Assembly: GCA_001600615.1 (NCBI GenBank)
Contig: BCKK01000005.1
Coordinates: 868,001 to 932,000, forward strand
Direction: 5' to 3'
Source of the DNA: Dioszegia crocea
Taxonomy: Eukaryota; Basidiomycota; Tremellomycetes; Tremellales; Bulleribasidiaceae
DNA: 64,000 nt
This document shows positions 18,292 through 60,028 of this stretch, one piece after another (position 1 is the first letter of the stretch; the number at the start of each line of letters is the position of its first letter). Below the pieces are notes generated by a model. It was not told the origin of the DNA. It saw only the letters and a list, made by a program, of their open reading frames with translations, and did not search any database. Made by a program: the position numbers and the translations under genes.

Positions 18292-18385
18292 GTCTCTATC
18301 GTATAACGGTCAGTATGCGACCTTGTGGTGACGTAATACGTACAAGTGCGCGGTTGAGATGGGTGTTCGATTCACCCTGGGGACA
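18292..18385 (+). tRNA. tRNA-His (GUG) with 22-nt intron
   Basis: All arms fold. Acceptor 18292-18298 pairs with 18378-18384 (two G-T wobbles). The D stem is 18301-18304/18313-18316, with GG in the loop. The anticodon stem CGACC (18318-18322) pairs with GGTTG (18352-18356). The anticodon loop TTGTGG-C places GTG at positions 34-36. The T stem GGGTG/CACCC flanks TTCGATT (18366-18372). The intron, 18329-18350, sits at the canonical site after position 37. Discriminator is A18385. A run of five T (18391-18395) just downstream is a Pol III terminator. The loop with C38 matches yeast tRNA-His. Position 9 is C instead of a purine, a mild oddity. Confidence 0.83.
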
Positions 18386-51745: not shown

Positions 51746-51752
51746 TATAAAA
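51746..51752 (+). promoter_or_regulatory. TATA box of secreted repeat protein 1
   Basis: TATAAAA, 83 bp before the ATG, followed by a C/T-rich leader. The paralogues have TATATAAG at the same place. Confidence 0.65.
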
Positions 51753-51834: not shown

Positions 51835-53642
51835 ATGCAGCTCTTCGCCCTCTTCACTCTCCTACCCCTCCTCGCCAATGCCGCACCCCTCGGCCTCCTC
51901 CCCAACATCCTTCCCAAAGTCTGCATCGGCTCGGCCTGCCTCACCAACTCCACCGCTCAGCCTGGCAACCTCGTCGATGTCAACGCAGCTCTCGGTAAAG
52001 TCGGGGTCAATGTCACTCTGGGTCTCGGTGGTCACACTACCACTGTAGCTCCCGCCCCAGTCCCCACTCCCGCTCCTACCACTGGCGGTAAGAATCTCGT
52101 CGACCTTAACGCCGACCTCGGTATCCTCACACTCAACGCTACCGTTGGTCTTGGTGGCCACAACACCCCTGTCTCCCCTCCTCCTGCTCCCACACACGCT
52201 CCTGCCCCACCTCCCGCCACCGATGGTAAGAACCTGGTAGATGTCAACGCCGATCTCGGTATTGCCACCCTCGGCGCTACCGTCGGTCTCGGTGGCCACA
52301 ACACCCCTGCCCCCGTCCCCGCGCCTGCCCCTGCGCCTACTCCTGCCCCTGCGCCAGCTCCCGCTCCTGCTGCCGATGGCAAAAACCTCGTCGACGTTAA
52401 CGCCGATCTTGGCATCCTCACNNNNNNNNNNNNNNNNNNNNNNNNNNNNNNNNNNNNNNNNNNNNNNNNNNNNNNNNNNNNNNNNNNNNNNNNNNNNNNN
52501 NNNNNNNNNNNNNNNNNNNNNNNNNNNNNNNNNNNNNNNNNNNNNNNNNNNNNNNNNNNNNNNNNNNNNNNNNNNNNNNNNNNNNNNNNNNNNNNNNNNN
52601 NNNNNNNNNNNNNNNNNNNNNAAAGACCTCATCGACGTTAACGCCGATCTTGGCATCCTCACCCTCAACGCTACCGTCGGTCTAGGTGGTCACCACACCC
52701 CTGCCCCCGTTCCCGCGCCTGCCCCAGCACCTACCCCTGCGCCTGCGCCTGCTCCCGCCCCCGCCACTGATGGCAAGAACCTCATCGACGTCAACGCCGA
52801 TCTTGGCATCGTCGGGCTCAACCTCACTGTTGGCCACGGTACCCCCACTGCCCCCGTTGCCATCTCCATCCCCACTCCGAACCCCAACAACCTCATTGAC
52901 GTCAATGCCAACGTCCTCGGTCTCAACGTCACTCTAGGTCTCGGTGGTGCCGGGGCCCCTGCTCCCACAGCCCCTACCGTCCCTACCGTCCCCACTGTCC
53001 CCACCGTTCCCACCATCCCCAACAAGCCCATCCTCGGTAACGGTCTCAACCTTGACGGTATTTCCGGTCTTCTCAGCAACGTCATTGACACTGCTTCTGG
53101 CACTCTTTCTCCCATCCTCGACGGTCTCACGGCTTACCTTGTGAGTCTTCACGTTCTTCATCCCGCACAGTGCTGACTTTCAGATCAACTTGAAGGCGCC
53201 TTCCGTCCTCACCGCCATTGCTCAACTCAACATCGCTATTCTCAAACTGCAGCAGGCAGTTGATCAGCAGGCCGCTGCCATCAAGAAGTGAGTGACCCCT
53301 GCCTAAGTAGAGCTCAGCTGACAATTCAGCCGCAAAGACATTGCCAACATTGTCAACTACACTGTCAACCTCATCCGCAACATCAGCGCCTACCTCGACC
53401 GCATGCCCGGATGGATCTTGACCAACAACTCTGTCAAATCTTTGGCTGCATCCCTCGACAACCTCCTCGCTGCCTACATCCTCGGTCTCCAGATCATCGG
53501 CATCTCCACCGCCATCTTTGCTCAGCAGGCTGCTTTGCTAGGGTTGACTTTGGGCAATTGGTCTCCTTTGCTTGCAAAGAGTGAGTACCGGTTCGTGCGC
53601 TTGGATAATGCTGACATCTCAGCCGGGGCTCTCTTCCTCTAA
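51835..53642 (+). CDS. Secreted Ala/Pro repeat protein, cluster member 1 (contains assembly gap)
   Basis: Extracellular protein with signal peptide MQLFALFTLLPLLANAAP. The core is a tandem repeat of about 45-60 residues, each NLVDVNADLGI-x-TL-x-ATVGLGG followed by an Ala-Pro linker; four and a half units precede the gap and at least two follow it. The C-terminal 120 residues are an amphipathic helical domain shared with the two downstream paralogues. Exons are 51835-53140, 53184-53287, 53330-53580 and 53623-53642, ending TGALFL. Positions 52422-52621 are exactly 200 N; the frames on either side disagree by one base, so the true gap length is not 200. Introns are 41-43 nt. Function unknown; a surface or matrix protein is plausible. 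Confidence 0.75.
52422..52621. other. Assembly gap of 200 N inside tandem repeat
   Basis: Run of exactly 200 N within the repeat core. The repeat continues in a consistent reading frame on each side, but the two frames join only if the real gap is 1 modulo 3. Typical placeholder gap where a tandem repeat collapsed. Confidence 0.95.
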
Positions 53643-53842
53643 ATCAAGCCCCTAGTAGATCATCAGCAGTAGTGCATCAAAGTCAAAAGTAAACACCTTG
53701 TAGTCGTAGCAGTCTCTATCGTTCTCTTACATGTATACTATCTCTCCGTTACTACTATAAGCACAGCCTTTCTACTCTCGACTTCAGAGGCACGTCTCCT
53801 CCAGTAGCAGCGAGAGGTCAGCTTGGCCTTAGCAGATGGCAA

Positions 53843-53880
53843 GAGTGCCATATTCAAAATTGCCTCTTCCGGAAGTTTCG
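53843..53880. promoter_or_regulatory. Shared upstream block, copy 2
   Basis: GAGTGCCATATTC, A/T stretch, then TGCCTCTTCCGGAAG. The palindrome CTTCCGGAAG is identical in copy 3. About 610 bp before the ATG. Confidence 0.5.
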
Positions 53881-54385
53881 AGCGATAGTTCAAAGCCTCC
53901 ATTCCGCGCCTTTTTGGGCGTTTTTAGTCCTTCCATCCAGCTTACATCCAGCCATAGCATCTATCGCCGTACATGCACACAAACAACGCCCAGATCTGGT
54001 CTATTCAGCTCATACGCCTTCCCGCGGCGATATCCAATGGGCGAGCCGGCGGCGGTTGAACGTGTCGCAGCCGGAGCAACCGACTTCAATGCTAATTCTC
54101 CGGATGACCCGAGTTGCGATATTCCGCATACCGCAGAAGAGCTCGCAGAAGGATGATAGCTTGGAGATGGTTCAACCTCTTCATTTGGACGTTGAGTCAG
54201 CACAAGCTTGATGTTTGCGCCTCTTCAACATGACAACAGTCAGCACATCGATGTCGATGAGTGGCGGCGGATCCATTCATCGAAGGCGATTCGCTTCATG
54301 CTCAAATTGACAGAGTAACGCTGGATGTGGACGACGTGATTGCGCTCATTCTCACTCACAGGACAGGAAGGACGCCGACGAGAGA

Positions 54386-54393
54386 TATATAAG
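54386..54393 (+). promoter_or_regulatory. TATA box of cluster member 2
   Basis: TATATAAG followed by GCGGTCA, identical in member 3; 97 bp before the ATG. Confidence 0.65.
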
Positions 54394-54489
54394 GCGGTCA
54401 CTTTTCCCCCTTTCCCTCTTTCTTCATCCAAACTCTTCATCTTCACACTCCTCCACAACCACACCTCCCACCTTCCATCTTTCATCACA

Positions 54490-55441
54490 ATGCAGCTCGC
54501 TATCCTCTTCACCCTCCTCCCGATCCTTGCCAGCGCCGCTCCTCTTCTCGGCCTCCCCAAGCCCGCCCTTGTCGACCTCAACCTCGTCAATGCCCTCAAC
54601 CTCAACCTTACCGTCACTCTCGGCGGCGTAACCATCCCCGGCAAGGGCCTTCCCACCGGTCTCCCAGTCCTTCCCACTGGTCTCCCCGCTCTCCCTGCCG
54701 GCGTTGTACCTGCTGTCCCCGCCATCCCTGCTCTCGACCTCGCCAAACTCCCCGTCGTCGGTGGTCTCTTGGCCGGTGGTATCCCCACTGGTCTCCCTAG
54801 CTTGCCCACTGGCCTGCCACCCTACCCTCCACTGGCGCCCTCCCCGACCTCAGCAGCATCATTGGCGGTGCTCTCGCCGGCGGCTCTGCTCCCTCTCTCT
54901 CCCCTGTCCTCCAGAGGCTCTCTAGCTTTCTCGTAAGTCTTCCTTTCTTACCTCTACCAGCTAAGCTAACCCTCAGATTGGCTTGAAGGCTCCTTCCATC
55001 GTCACCGCCACCACTCAGCTCAGCACCGCCATCACTAGCTTGCAGGCTGCCATTGCTGAGCAGGCCAACGTCCTCAAGGCGTAAGTCCAACCTCATTGAC
55101 CAAAAACGATAGCTCACCCCACAGCCGCACCGATGATCTCGCCAACGTCGTCACCCAGGTCGTTGCCCTCGTCCGCACCATCAGCAACTACCTTAATCTC
55201 ATCCCTTCCTCCATCTTGACCAACAGCGCCATCGAATCCCTGGCCGCCTCCGTCGACAGGCTCCTCGCTGCCTACATCGTCGGTCTCCAGGTTATTGGCC
55301 TTTCCACCACCGCTTTCCTCGCCGAGGTCACCAAGCAGCGTCTCGACCTGGCTGGTCTATCCACTCTGCTCCCTTCCAGCAAGTCTTCCATCTTTGGGCT
55401 GTGACACGCGCTGACCCTCAGCCCGCGCTCTCTTCGCTTAG
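54490..55441 (+). pseudogene. Secreted Gly-Leu-Pro repeat protein, cluster member 2, with 1-bp frameshift
   Basis: Paralogue of member 3. Signal peptide MQLAILFTLLPILASAAP, a short GLPTGLP-type repeat core, then the shared C-terminal domain. Exons 54490-54932, 54977-55080, 55125-55378 and 55422-55441; exons 2-4 have exactly the lengths of member 3 (104, 254 and 20). In exon 1 at about 54,818-54,821 one base is missing compared with member 3 (GCCTGCCACCC against GCCTGCCCTCCC), so the frame runs into a stop at the splice donor and the C-terminal domain is lost, although it remains otherwise open. The last intron uses a GC donor (GCAAGTC). Recent inactivation or a sequencing error cannot be told apart. 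Confidence 0.7.
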
Positions 55442-55573
55442 GCAGTCATTGGTCGTGGCAAGGGTTTATGCAGTATCAAAAGACAATCTTGGACAGTTGA
55501 AGTATAATTCGGTTTCGGTTTCGGTTCTGTATTCTGCAGAAAAATGCAATACATCCTTGATTACTACACCTCA

Positions 55574-55686
55574 TCTACTACTGCATCCGCTGCTAACTAA
55601 TTAGTAACAGCGCCTGCTCAAACGACTCCTTCAATACTGGAATAGCCTCTTCTCCCACACTGACTCCCACCAGTCCCGCTTCTACC
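55574..55686 (-). pseudogene. Relic of the 3' end of cystathionine gamma-synthase
   Basis: The minus strand reads GLVGVSVGEEAIPVLKESFE then QALL, matching the C-terminus of the intact gene at 57980-60028 ([20 protein letters not shown] then [11 protein letters not shown]). Nucleotide identity is high over about 85 bp, after a small insertion near the stop end. Only this terminal piece is present. It shows that a segmental copy carrying a repeat-protein gene extended into the convergent neighbour. Confidence 0.8.
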
Positions 55687-55798
55687 GCTTAGAGTAGATC
55701 ACCAGGTAGTAAAGCATCTAAGTAAACCTCTTGTAGTCATAGCAATCATCTTACATGTCTACTATTTCCATCACTCGACTTGGCTCTGTAGCAAGTGG

Positions 55799-55840
55799 CA
55801 AAAGTGCCACATTGAGAGATTGCCTCTTCCGGAAGTTCCG
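55799..55840. promoter_or_regulatory. Shared upstream block, copy 3
   Basis: AAAGTGCCACATTG, A/T stretch, then TTGCCTCTTCCGGAAG, as in copy 2. About 610 bp before the ATG. Confidence 0.5.
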
Positions 55841-56342
55841 AGCAATAGTGCAGCCGTCCATTCAGCTCTTCCTCGGCGTTTCTACTTCTTCCACTTACAG
55901 ATGCATCTAGCCACAGCATCCATTGCAGCGCATGCACAGGCACAGCGCCCAGATCTGGACTATTCAGCTCTATGCATCCCAATCTCTGCGGCGCTATCGA
56001 ATGGCCGGGCCGGAGAATTGCAGCCGGGACGATAGACAGACCTTCAATGCCGATTCACCGGACAACCCAAAGCAGTGATGTTGCGATATTTCGACATATC
56101 GCAGAAGGAAATTAGCTTGGAGATGGTTCGGTGTGTTCATTGGGGCATTGGGCCAGGTCGATCTTGATTTTCACGCCTTTACTTTCGTGGCGACAATCAA
56201 CAAATTGATCAAATGAGAGGCGGCATCTCTATCGATCGAAGGCGATTCGGTTGATGCCTCAATCAAACAGATTGACGCTGGAAGCGGACGATATGATTGC
56301 GCTCATTCCGACGTTATGAGTAGCCCAGAGGTCGTCGAGGGA

Positions 56343-56350
56343 TATATAAG
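56343..56350 (+). promoter_or_regulatory. TATA box of cluster member 3
   Basis: TATATAAG followed by GCGGTCA; 99 bp before the ATG, with a C/T-rich leader after it. Confidence 0.65.
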
Positions 56351-56448
56351 GCGGTCAAATTTCCCCCTCCTCTTCTTCTTCATCTCAACTCATCTTCACC
56401 TTCACACTCCTTCACTTTCACACCTTTCCATCTTTCATCTTCTTCACA

Positions 56449-57839
56449 ATGCAGCTGGCTGTACTTTTCACTCTCCTCCCGCTGCTGGCCAGCGCCGCTC
56501 CTCTCTTCAACCTCCTCCCCAAGCCCAACAACCTCGTCGACATCAACCTCGGCAACCTCGGTAAGGTCCTCGAGGTCAACGTCACTCTCACCGTCGGTGG
56601 TGTCGCCCTCCCTACCAAGGTCATCCCCACTGGGCTCCCCACCGGTCTTCCTACTGGCCTCCCTACCGGTCTTCCCACTGCTGGTCTCCCCGGTCTCCCC
56701 ACTGGCGGTCTTCCAGGTCTTCCCGCTGGCGGCCTTCCTGCCCTCCCTGCGCTCGACCTCGGCAAGCTCCCCGTCGTCGGTGACCTCTTGAACGGTGGTC
56801 TCCCCACTGGTCTCCCCGCCGGCCTTCCTACCGGCCTCCCCACCGGTCTCCCCAGCCTCCCCACTGGCGGTCTCCCAGGCCTCCCCGGCCTCCCTGCTGG
56901 CGGTCTCCCTGCTCTCCCCGCCATCGACCTCGGCAAGATCCCCGTCGTCGGTGACATCTTGGGTGGTGGTCTCCCTACCGGCCTTCCTAGCCTCCCTACT
57001 GGTCTCCCTACCGGTGGACTCCCAGGTCTCCCCACTGGCGGTCTCCCAGGTCTCCCCGCTGGTGGCCTTCCTGCTCTCCCTGCTCTCGACCTCGGCAAGC
57101 TTCCCATCGTCGGTGACCTCTTGAACGGTGGCCTCTCCACTGGTCTCCCCACCGGCCTTCCTACCGGCCTTCCCACCGGTCTCCCCACTGGCCTCCCCAC
57201 CTTGCCCACTGGCCTGCCCTCCCTACCCTCCACTGGCGGCCTCCCCGACCTCAGCGGTATCATCGGTGGTGCTCTTCCCGGTGGCTCCGCTCCTTCTCTC
57301 TCCCCTGTCCTCCAGAGGCTCTCTTCTTTCCTTGTAAGTCTTCATACCTCTCATCTACCTGCGCTAACCCCACAGATCGGCTTGAAGGCTCCCTCCCTCC
57401 TCACCGCCATCACCCAGCTCAGCACTGCCATCACCAGCTTGCAGCTCGCTCTCGCTGAGCAGGCCAATGTCCTCAAGGCGTAAGTCCCTCCTCTATGCTC
57501 CGAACCACAGCTGACCCAGCAGTCGAGCCAACGACCTTGCCAACGTCGTCACCCAGGTCACTGCCCTTATCCGCACCATCAGCAACTACCTCAACCTCCT
57601 CCCCACCTCCATCCTCAACAACAGCGTCATCAAGTCTAGCGCTGCCTCTGTCGACAAGCTCCTCGCTGGCTACGTTCTCGGCCTCCAGGTCATTGGCCTC
57701 TCCACCGCCGCCTTCCTCGCCGAGGTCAACAAGCAGGGTCTCGACTTGTCTGCTCTCTCTTCTTTGCTCCCCCAGAGTAAGTCATCTGTCTTGGGCTTGT
57801 AACATACGCTGAATGATAGCCCGCGCTCTCTTCGCTTAA
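56449..57839 (+). CDS. Secreted Gly-Leu-Pro-Thr repeat protein, cluster member 3 (intact)
   Basis: 420-aa secreted protein from exons 56449-57333, 57376-57479, 57523-57776 and 57820-57839 (frame closes). Signal peptide MQLAVLFTLLPLLASAAP. After a segment related to member 1 (NNLVDINLGNLGKVLEVNV) come about 215 residues of GLPTGLP repeats, organised in three larger units each with LPAL-DLGKLPVVGDLL. The C-terminal domain begins GLKAPSLLTAITQLSTAI, continues DLANVVTQVTALIRTISNYL and LQVIGLSTAAFLAEV, and ends TRALFA. There is no Cys, no GPI-anchor-like tail and no catalytic motif. Role unknown; the composition suits a structural cell-surface or matrix protein. Confidence 0.82.
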
Positions 57840-57979: not shown

Positions 57980-60028
57980 TTACTCTACTACTGCCTCCGC
58001 TGCCAACAGCGCCTGCTCGAATGACTCCTTCAATACTTCAATGTCCTCTTCTCCCACACTGACTCTCACCAGTCCCGCTTCTACTCCATACCCCGCCGCC
58101 CAGTCCAGCTCCAAATAATGCGCCAAGATGGTATACGGACACGCCAGTGTGAACGCCGTCCCCAATGACGGGCCCTTTGCACAAGCAAGATTGTCAAAGA
58201 AGGCCCCGCTAGCCTTGTCCGACGTAAAGGTCAAACTGAACAACCCACCATATCCGCCTTCGCCGAGAGTGGGTGTGCGCCGCGCCTGATGGAAGTTTTC
58301 GGGGGTGCTGAATCTGGGGTAATAGACTCGCTTTATGGCTTTGCCAGTTTGGGATGAGGAGGTATCCATAAGTGAGCGGGAGTGGAGGTAGGATGTGAGG
58401 AAGTGGGTGTTGTCGTTGATCCGCTTGATCCGTAGGCGGTAATCCCGAGAATTACGCTCCATGTAGACTGAGTCTTCGGGGAAGTAGTTGTCTTCGTAGG
58501 ATGACGCCATGACCGTCTGGAGACCGTCGTACCATGGGCTACTGGGATTGAGAACAAGACTGGAGTCAGCTTGGCCAAACTTAGACTGACCTTCCACCCA
58601 TGACATTGGCATCTCCGCTGAAGATCTTGGACAAACTGCTGACGACGATATCCGCAAATTGTACCACCTCGACGTTGATAAAGTTCCCAATGGTCTCGTC
58701 AATGACAATGGCAAAGCCGTATTTGTCGGCCAATTGTCGTAGCCGGACGAGATCTGGAGATCTGAGGAGAGGATTTGAGGGGAATTCGCAGAACAGCGAG
58801 AGGATGGGGGTGTCGGCCTTTGCACAGATCTCCTCTAGCGCCTCTACCTCTTCAGAACCGCCTCGACCAAGAAAGTGGCACCCAGCACCCCACTTTTGCA
58901 ATATCTTGAGTGTATCGGTGTATGGGAAACTACATTAGCTCTGGTCAGAGTTTCACTCACCCATAGCACACGCTCTTGCCTTCCGGCTTCCCTTCCGCTC
59001 TTCTCGCTCTGCGCACATTATCATGCGCATGCCAGATAGCACTCATCCCAGTCGGGTAAAGATACACATCCTCCTCTTTTACCGCCTTCTTGCCATCTCC
59101 ACCTCCTCGCTTGATATCCGCCACAGCCCCAAATCCCTCATCACTCGGCAACAGCCCACCGGCAATTCTCCGCTTCAGCGCATGTTTCGCCAGCGGAGCG
59201 TTAAACAGCGGCAGATTCCGCCCATACCGCTCTTCAAGATACGTCGTGAGGTCCGGTGTGAGATTTTCGTCCACAATTCGAGTTTCCTCTTTTCGCTGGG
59301 GGATGACGGTGGTGCTGGGGGTGCTAGAGACTGGATTTGGCTTCCGGCCGTAATGACGGTTATTCTTCCAGTTGATCGTGGCGTTCTTGCCTTGCTTCTC
59401 GGGGGCGGTAGCAACTGGAGAGTCTGGCGGAGCACCAGCGGGAGTCTCGCCGAGGAAAGATAGAGCTCTTTCGGCGGTACGAGAGGATATGCCATCTCCG
59501 GTATGTTGCCAGAACGCCTTTGCGGTCGGGAAGTGCTCCTTGTCAAAGAGCAAGATTTGGAGTTCGATCAAGTCTACGCCGGATGTTGGAGCTGCATCCG
59601 CAAGAGAAGTGACCGAACCGTCCATGGGCATAGTAGGACTCGAGGGAAGGGTAAGGGACGGGCAAATGACGAACTCGACTATGCGAGAGGGGATGGAAGG
59701 GGATTGATTGGCGAGGAAATCTCGGGCGGCTGCGGCGACTCTTTGGGATGGTAGGAGAATGCAGAGCTCGTCCGGTCGGCCAAATTTTGCCGTACACAGG
59801 TTGGCAAGCTATAATCAGCTCTGGCAAGGCTCCACGCACCTTTTGTATACTCAGGTGAATGAAGAATCTCGGATACCCCGTCTGCATTCGATCGACGACT
59901 CGGCGTTCGCCCTCTTCATATCCCACGACATCGCGGATGGTCGGGAGGGACACTGAAATTGCGTGGGGCGTATCAGCCGGCACTGAGGCACCGAGAGGGA
60001 TGGCTGGCTGTCTTTGAGGGCCGGGCAT
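57980..60028 (-). CDS. STR2: Cystathionine gamma-synthase
   Basis: PLP enzyme joining cysteine with an activated homoserine to cystathionine in transsulfuration. Coding parts on the minus strand are 59840-60028, 58961-59808, 58591-58929 and 57980-58559 (651 aa, frame closes). Start block [20 protein letters not shown] and VVGYEEGE are typical of the fungal form, which has a long N-terminal domain. Then [45 protein letters not shown] and SSLSKIFSG (PLP Lys). The end is [19 protein letters not shown]. An in-frame upstream ATG at 60130 would add 34 residues; ATG 60028 fits the family better. The intron 58560-58590 has a GTCAGT donor. Confidence 0.93.

Follow-up and report, generated by a model that had tools for sequence, protein, structure and literature searches.

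Three tandem genes of Dioszegia crocea encoding a probable orphan family of secreted repeat proteins with a common C-terminal domain

A cluster of three tandem genes was analysed in a 64,000-nucleotide stretch of the genome of Dioszegia crocea, a yeast-like Tremellomycete. The stretch (the window) corresponds to positions 868001–932000 of contig BCKK01000005.1 (C5) in assembly GCA_001600615.1, which comprises 20.57 Mb in 17 contigs, and the cluster occupies window positions 51835–57839 on the plus strand. The cluster is real, and its products constitute an orphan family, probably highly expressed and secreted, with a new helical domain at the C-terminal end. The explanation preferred here, to which we give roughly an even chance, is that the genes form a tandem family of recent origin whose products are secreted structural proteins made at a high level, with a C-terminal domain that oligomerises or anchors and a preceding repeat core that is a flexible spacer. 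Secreted low-complexity structural proteins are a kind already known, but this family itself is not; since orphan secreted repeat proteins are common, the surprise is limited.

Gene models built from the sequence bore out the three tandem plus-strand genes proposed in an earlier, sequence-only reading of this DNA, though not all three are intact. Gene 3 (56449–57839) has four exons and a spliced protein of 420 amino acids, with exon 1 at 56449–57333 and the domain exons at 57376–57479, 57523–57776 and 57820–57839 (together 57376–57839). Gene 1 (51835–53642) has the same exon plan, with exon 1 at 51835–53140 and the domain exons at 53184–53287, 53330–53580 and 53623–53642 (together 53184–53642), and is interrupted in exon 1 by a run of 200 N at 52422–52621. 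The flanking frames do not fit a length of exactly 200, so this length is probably nominal, representing an assembly gap in the repeat. In gene 2 (54490–55441; exon 1 at 54490–54932, domain exons at 54977–55080, 55125–55378 and 55422–55441, together 54977–55441) all the elements are present, but with gene 3 as reference the frame of exon 1 is off by one base from that of its own domain exons, and the gene is not one open frame; a scan of this stretch for canonical frame-changing introns found none. All nine introns are 42–44 nt long, with a CTNA motif beginning 11–12 nt before the 3′ end, and eight of them have a GTRAGT donor, the remaining one being the GC–AG intron 3 of gene 2.

The C-terminal domain common to the three genes is about 120–125 residues long and is encoded by exons of 104, 251 and 20 nt in gene 1 and of 104, 254 and 20 nt in genes 2 and 3, in agreement with the sizes previously read (104, about 254 and 20 nt). 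The gene 1 domain is 48–50% identical to those of genes 2 and 3, which is above chance. As also read before, the domain is free of Cys and ends in ALFL in gene 1 (..LLAKTGALFL) and in ALFA in genes 2 and 3 (..LLPQTRALFA, ..LLPSTRALFA). It contains a segment of 54–55 residues without Gly or Pro, across which the hydrophobic moment peaks near the heptad angle, a periodicity shared with coiled-coil proteins. The observed heptad moment was reached by 12, 4 and 2 of 2000 shuffles for genes 1, 2 and 3 (0.006, 0.002 and 0.001), the three tests being made on related sequences and hence non-independent. This segment is followed by a third helix which is nearly uniformly hydrophobic and in which GLQ[VI]IG[LI]ST is invariant in type. 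Of the amphipathic helical domain described earlier, the long helix stands, while the third helix departs from the description. The heptad pattern, together with the hydrophobic character of the third helix, makes it plausible that the domain anchors the proteins or self-assembles. Retention of intron 3 would carry genes 2 and 3 on to short ends that resemble each other (..SKSSIFGL at 55379–55404 and ..SKSSVLGL at 57777–57802), and intron 3 of gene 1 is likewise open in frame; an alternative C-terminus via intron 3 retention is possible.

The domain region of gene 3 was compared with 5.8 billion proteins, and none of the 1359 candidates was at E ≤ 1e-3; with an alignment of the three domains, none of the 7992 candidates listed and scored was significant. 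This search sees only proteins of 0.55–1.75 times the query length that share exact five-residue words, and divergent relatives can therefore be missed. As a control, the open reading frame (ORF) of the neighbouring GTP cyclohydrolase II gave 7998 significant matches among 8000 candidates, and the 120 matches listed include Naematelia, Saitozyma, Kwoniella, Cryptococcus, Tremella and Vanrija. Because the control gene retrieves many Tremellomycete proteins, the lack of relatives is informative within the word-sharing sensitivity. In the D. crocea genome itself the domain turned up in the cluster only: all six matches of the gene 3 domain at E ≤ 10 lie there, as do nine of the 11 matches of the 3′ half of gene 1, the other two being weak and Pro/Ala-rich. 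Matches on contigs C4 and C2 (E 0.13 and 0.21), which sit in Pro/Ala-rich ORFs, and one on C1 (E 0.045), a Tyr-Leu-Pro-Thr run, were rejected; the Ala-Pro stretch has a 50-bp DNA match on C8.

The profile search with the domain, proposed in the sequence-only reading, gave no significant family match, and neither Pfam nor the PDB sequences yielded a significant relative. The weak matches set aside were Baculo_PEP_C (E 0.0023, with two of the three domains), LepB_N (0.016), FlgN (0.019), XhlA (0.036) and others, a PT repeat in the gene 3 core (E 0.0031, under its cut-off), and 11 PDB sequences (best E 0.062) that include designed coiled coils and coronavirus spike helices; the weak Pfam and PDB matches look like coiled-coil or low-complexity resemblance. 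The description of the family as lineage-specific fits these results, and the statement that it belongs to no described family holds for Pfam, the PDB sequences and the 5.8 billion proteins at the sensitivity given above. Since the proteins resemble no protein family found, they may be a material that this fungal lineage uses at its surface or in its matrix. The uncharacterised gene g3655 of Papiliotrema terrestris, described in PMC10960036 as strongly expressed, encodes a signal peptide and has relatives among other basidiomycetes.

HsbA (PF12296), like the present proteins a secreted fungal protein with a domain of about 120 residues (121 positions in the Pfam model), had been named as the characterised family to be distinguished. 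Its profile matched none of the three domains at E up to 10. In the whole genome, read exon by exon and with no fungal positive control, it gave one match outside the cluster, at 15.7 bits against a cut-off of 33.5, in an ORF presumed to be an ATP synthase subunit. In PMC5872309, species-specific HsbA paralogs are reported and most HsbA proteins are single-domain, whereas here a long signal and repeat core precedes the domain. A remote HsbA relative unseen by sequence, or another hydrophobic-surface binder whose domain by itself adheres to solids such as plant cuticle, insect frass or plastics through their hydrophobic surface and so recruits hydrolases or the cell, would be compatible with a secreted, helical, Cys-free domain of about 120 residues with a hydrophobic third helix. 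With the HsbA profile unmatched, such a binder is considered unlikely.

The third helix could alternatively be transmembrane, with a short cytosolic tail and the core displayed on the cell, as in a membrane-anchored surface glycoprotein. Its best 19-residue Kyte–Doolittle means (2.04, 1.74 and 1.72 for genes 1, 2 and 3) are in favour of this, but crude translocon-scale sums were positive (0.69, 2.39 and 2.66 for genes 1, 2 and 3), and an invariant Gln lies at the centre of the helix. By inspection, the C-terminus is also without the hydrophobic tail after an omega site that characterises glycosylphosphatidylinositol-anchored wall proteins. Membrane anchoring is doubted to the same degree as the surface binder.

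The proteins of all three genes start with MQL..LLPxLAxAAPL, which by inspection is signal-peptide-like, as the sequence-only reading had it. An N-terminal unit of about 22 residues, NLVDxN...NxTLxxGG, is also common to the three and occurs once each in genes 2 and 3. Exon 1 of gene 1 has Ala-Pro linkers and at least seven NLVDxN units: three complete ones upstream of the gap, one that the gap truncates and three downstream of it. A sequon is present in seven of the eight complete units (five of six in gene 1 and the one in each of genes 2 and 3). Exon 1 of gene 3 contains three [LI]DLGK[LI]P...GG modules with GLPT runs (33 GLP in all), and gene 2 has one such module and a short GLP core. The claim of different repeat cores was upheld for Ala-Pro with NADLG in gene 1 and Gly-Leu-Pro-Thr in genes 2 and 3, but the N-terminal unit is shared and, as it is present in all three genes, the NADLG repeats are its amplified form. 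Starting from a single ancestral layout, different paralogs would appear to have expanded different parts of it. On the minus strand, ORFs of 280 and 307 amino acids lie over the repeat exon of gene 3 (window 56380–57341) and are probably a by-product of repeat composition.

The value of 2P+G for the core is 0.65 in gene 3, 0.62 in gene 2 and 0.48 in gene 1, and the gene 3 core consists of 25% Leu, 25% Gly (G 0.25) and 20% Pro (P 0.20). In composition only, this hydrophobic Pro/Gly-rich repeat core is like that of elastin-like elastomers; in elastin, according to PMC5703643, a high Pro and Gly content maintains disorder and hydration. Unlike in these elastomers, a helical end domain is present here and no Lys cross-linking pattern was seen, and no sequence relation to them was shown. 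Repellent-type Kex2-processed fungal peptides also derive from secreted repeat proteins of basidiomycetes, but dibasic sites are absent from gene 3, gene 2 exon 1 and the 5′ part of gene 1 (the gap being unread), with one RK in the gene 1 domain. Hydrophobins (PF01185), as abundant fungal surface proteins with hydrophobic assembly, are candidates for working in a similar way. They are Cys-rich, with eight conserved Cys, whereas none occurs in gene 3, gene 2 exon 1 or the 3′ part of gene 1, and two occur in the 5′ part of gene 1.

Codon adaptation index (CAI) weights were taken from one eEF2 exon (629 codons) and one eEF1A exon (151 codons). The CAI of six gene segments of the cluster was 0.48–0.65, as compared with 0.22–0.32 for 11 other window ORFs (read stop to stop, not all confirmed genes). 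Relative to synonymous codons sampled at random from these 11 ORFs, the z values of the segments were 11.7 to 20.6; those of the ORFs were −1.6 to 3.6 and centre on 0 by construction, since the ORFs are the background. In cross-scoring, eEF1A gave 0.77 with eEF2 weights, eEF2 gave 0.61 with eEF1A weights, and the gene 3 domain gave 0.66 with eEF2 weights only. This shift of codon usage towards eEF1A and eEF2 is strong indirect evidence for the high expression suggested earlier. Between genes 2 and 3 the ratio of nonsynonymous to synonymous substitution rates (dN/dS) of the domain is 0.25 (dS 0.46), which indicates that the domain is under purifying selection.

A secreted effector or antigenic-variation family directed at a host or a competitor, in which conflict drives the changes in repeat length, might likewise be orphan, tandem and variable in repeat length. 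However, a domain dN/dS well under 1 and translation-factor-like codon usage point to steady production in bulk, no host is known and the cores look structural, and we regard this explanation as very unlikely. No more probable is a decaying family, in which gene 2 would be a pseudogene and the cluster would have little function, having arisen as a by-product of local duplication, as the broken frame and GC donor of gene 2 would suggest: the gene 2 domain exons keep the dN/dS of 0.25 against gene 3 and a codon z of 12.7, and gene 3 is intact. Because these exons are constrained and their codon bias is retained, the frame break would be recent or an assembly error.

The preferred explanation, a family of secreted structural proteins, fits the Pro/Gly- or Pro/Ala-rich cores and the helical, Cys-free end domain, and is favoured by the retention of the domain while the cores vary in type and module number. 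After removal of the signal peptide, the N-terminal unit would be N-glycosylated and the core would act as a disordered flexible spacer, its length shifting freely by repeat gain and loss. The C-terminal domain would be the working end, its long heptad-patterned helix or hairpin forming coiled-coil oligomers, while the hydrophobic third helix would pack on this helix or hairpin or bind a hydrophobic surface; the chains might then assemble into a cell-surface or extracellular-matrix layer.

Several points weigh against this explanation. A surface or matrix function is suggested by the anatomy of the proteins and their codon usage; codon bias speaks for translation selection, not for protein location. 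Only gene 3 is a complete model, gene 2 having a broken frame and gene 1 a gap. The domain dN/dS of gene 1 versus genes 2 and 3 is higher (0.43 and 0.60), with synonymous sites near saturation. Structure prediction, another of the checks proposed, did yield helices, but at low confidence: AlphaFold models had a mean pLDDT of 54 and pTM of 0.43 for the gene 1 domain with retained intron residues, and 72 and 0.46 for exon 3 alone. Neither represents the whole native domain, as the first holds intron-derived residues and the second exon 3 only, and no fold match was significant; the support they lend to the helices is weak.

If made and secreted at the level suggested by the codons, the proteins would rank among the main components of the surface or matrix in a yeast-like Tremellomycete. 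No counterpart to them is recognised in Cryptococcus or Kwoniella, and they would give access to the question of how fungi invent surface materials. A bolder version, which we offer tentatively and think unlikely, is a clade-restricted, hydrophobin-independent extracellular protein material in which a new domain, combining a coiled coil with a hydrophobic helix, links elastin-like or glycosylated flexible chains at their ends, made at translation-factor level and with chain length tuned in each paralog by repeat gain and loss.

The cluster shows clearly how, following a tandem duplication that can be dated, an end domain is conserved while the repeat cores change freely. Two copies that mark the junction were located between genes 2 and 3. 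The first, at 55574–55685, is a duplication scar, a partial copy of the 3′ end of the neighbouring Cys/Met PLP-enzyme gene (original at 57984–58084; 93 of 112 columns), and its score of 134 compares with at most 26 among 300 shuffles. The second, at 55693–55768, begins seven bases past the scar and copies the 3′ flank of gene 1 (53654–53744; 66 of 93 columns); it scores 52, and none of 300 shuffles exceeded 25. The simplest account would be one tandem duplication of a block reaching from the gene 1 3′ flank across the whole second gene and into the Cys/Met gene.

TATA boxes and C/T leaders were present as described. A pattern search placed the core promoter TATATAAGGCGGTCA-NN-TTTCCCCC on the plus strand at 54386–54410 for gene 2 and at 56343–56367 for gene 3; allowing up to three mismatches, these were its only two sites in the 20.6-Mb assembly, and the reversed-pattern control gave 0. 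The TATA motif of gene 1 (51746–51752, plus strand), read from the sequence in alignment with genes 2 and 3 and followed by a C/T-rich leader, has a different spacing and falls outside this pattern. Genes 2 and 3 are 77% alike in their upstream regions, and the upstream region of gene 1 is hardly above the shuffled control.

Elsewhere in the assembly, the sole 5.8S rRNA match listed (C5:3065–3190, near the contig start) looks diverged, and the rDNA array therefore seems unassembled. At window positions 18292–18385 ARAGORN called a tRNA that has a four-base anticodon and no assigned type; scanning the window against Rfam at gathering scores listed no match.

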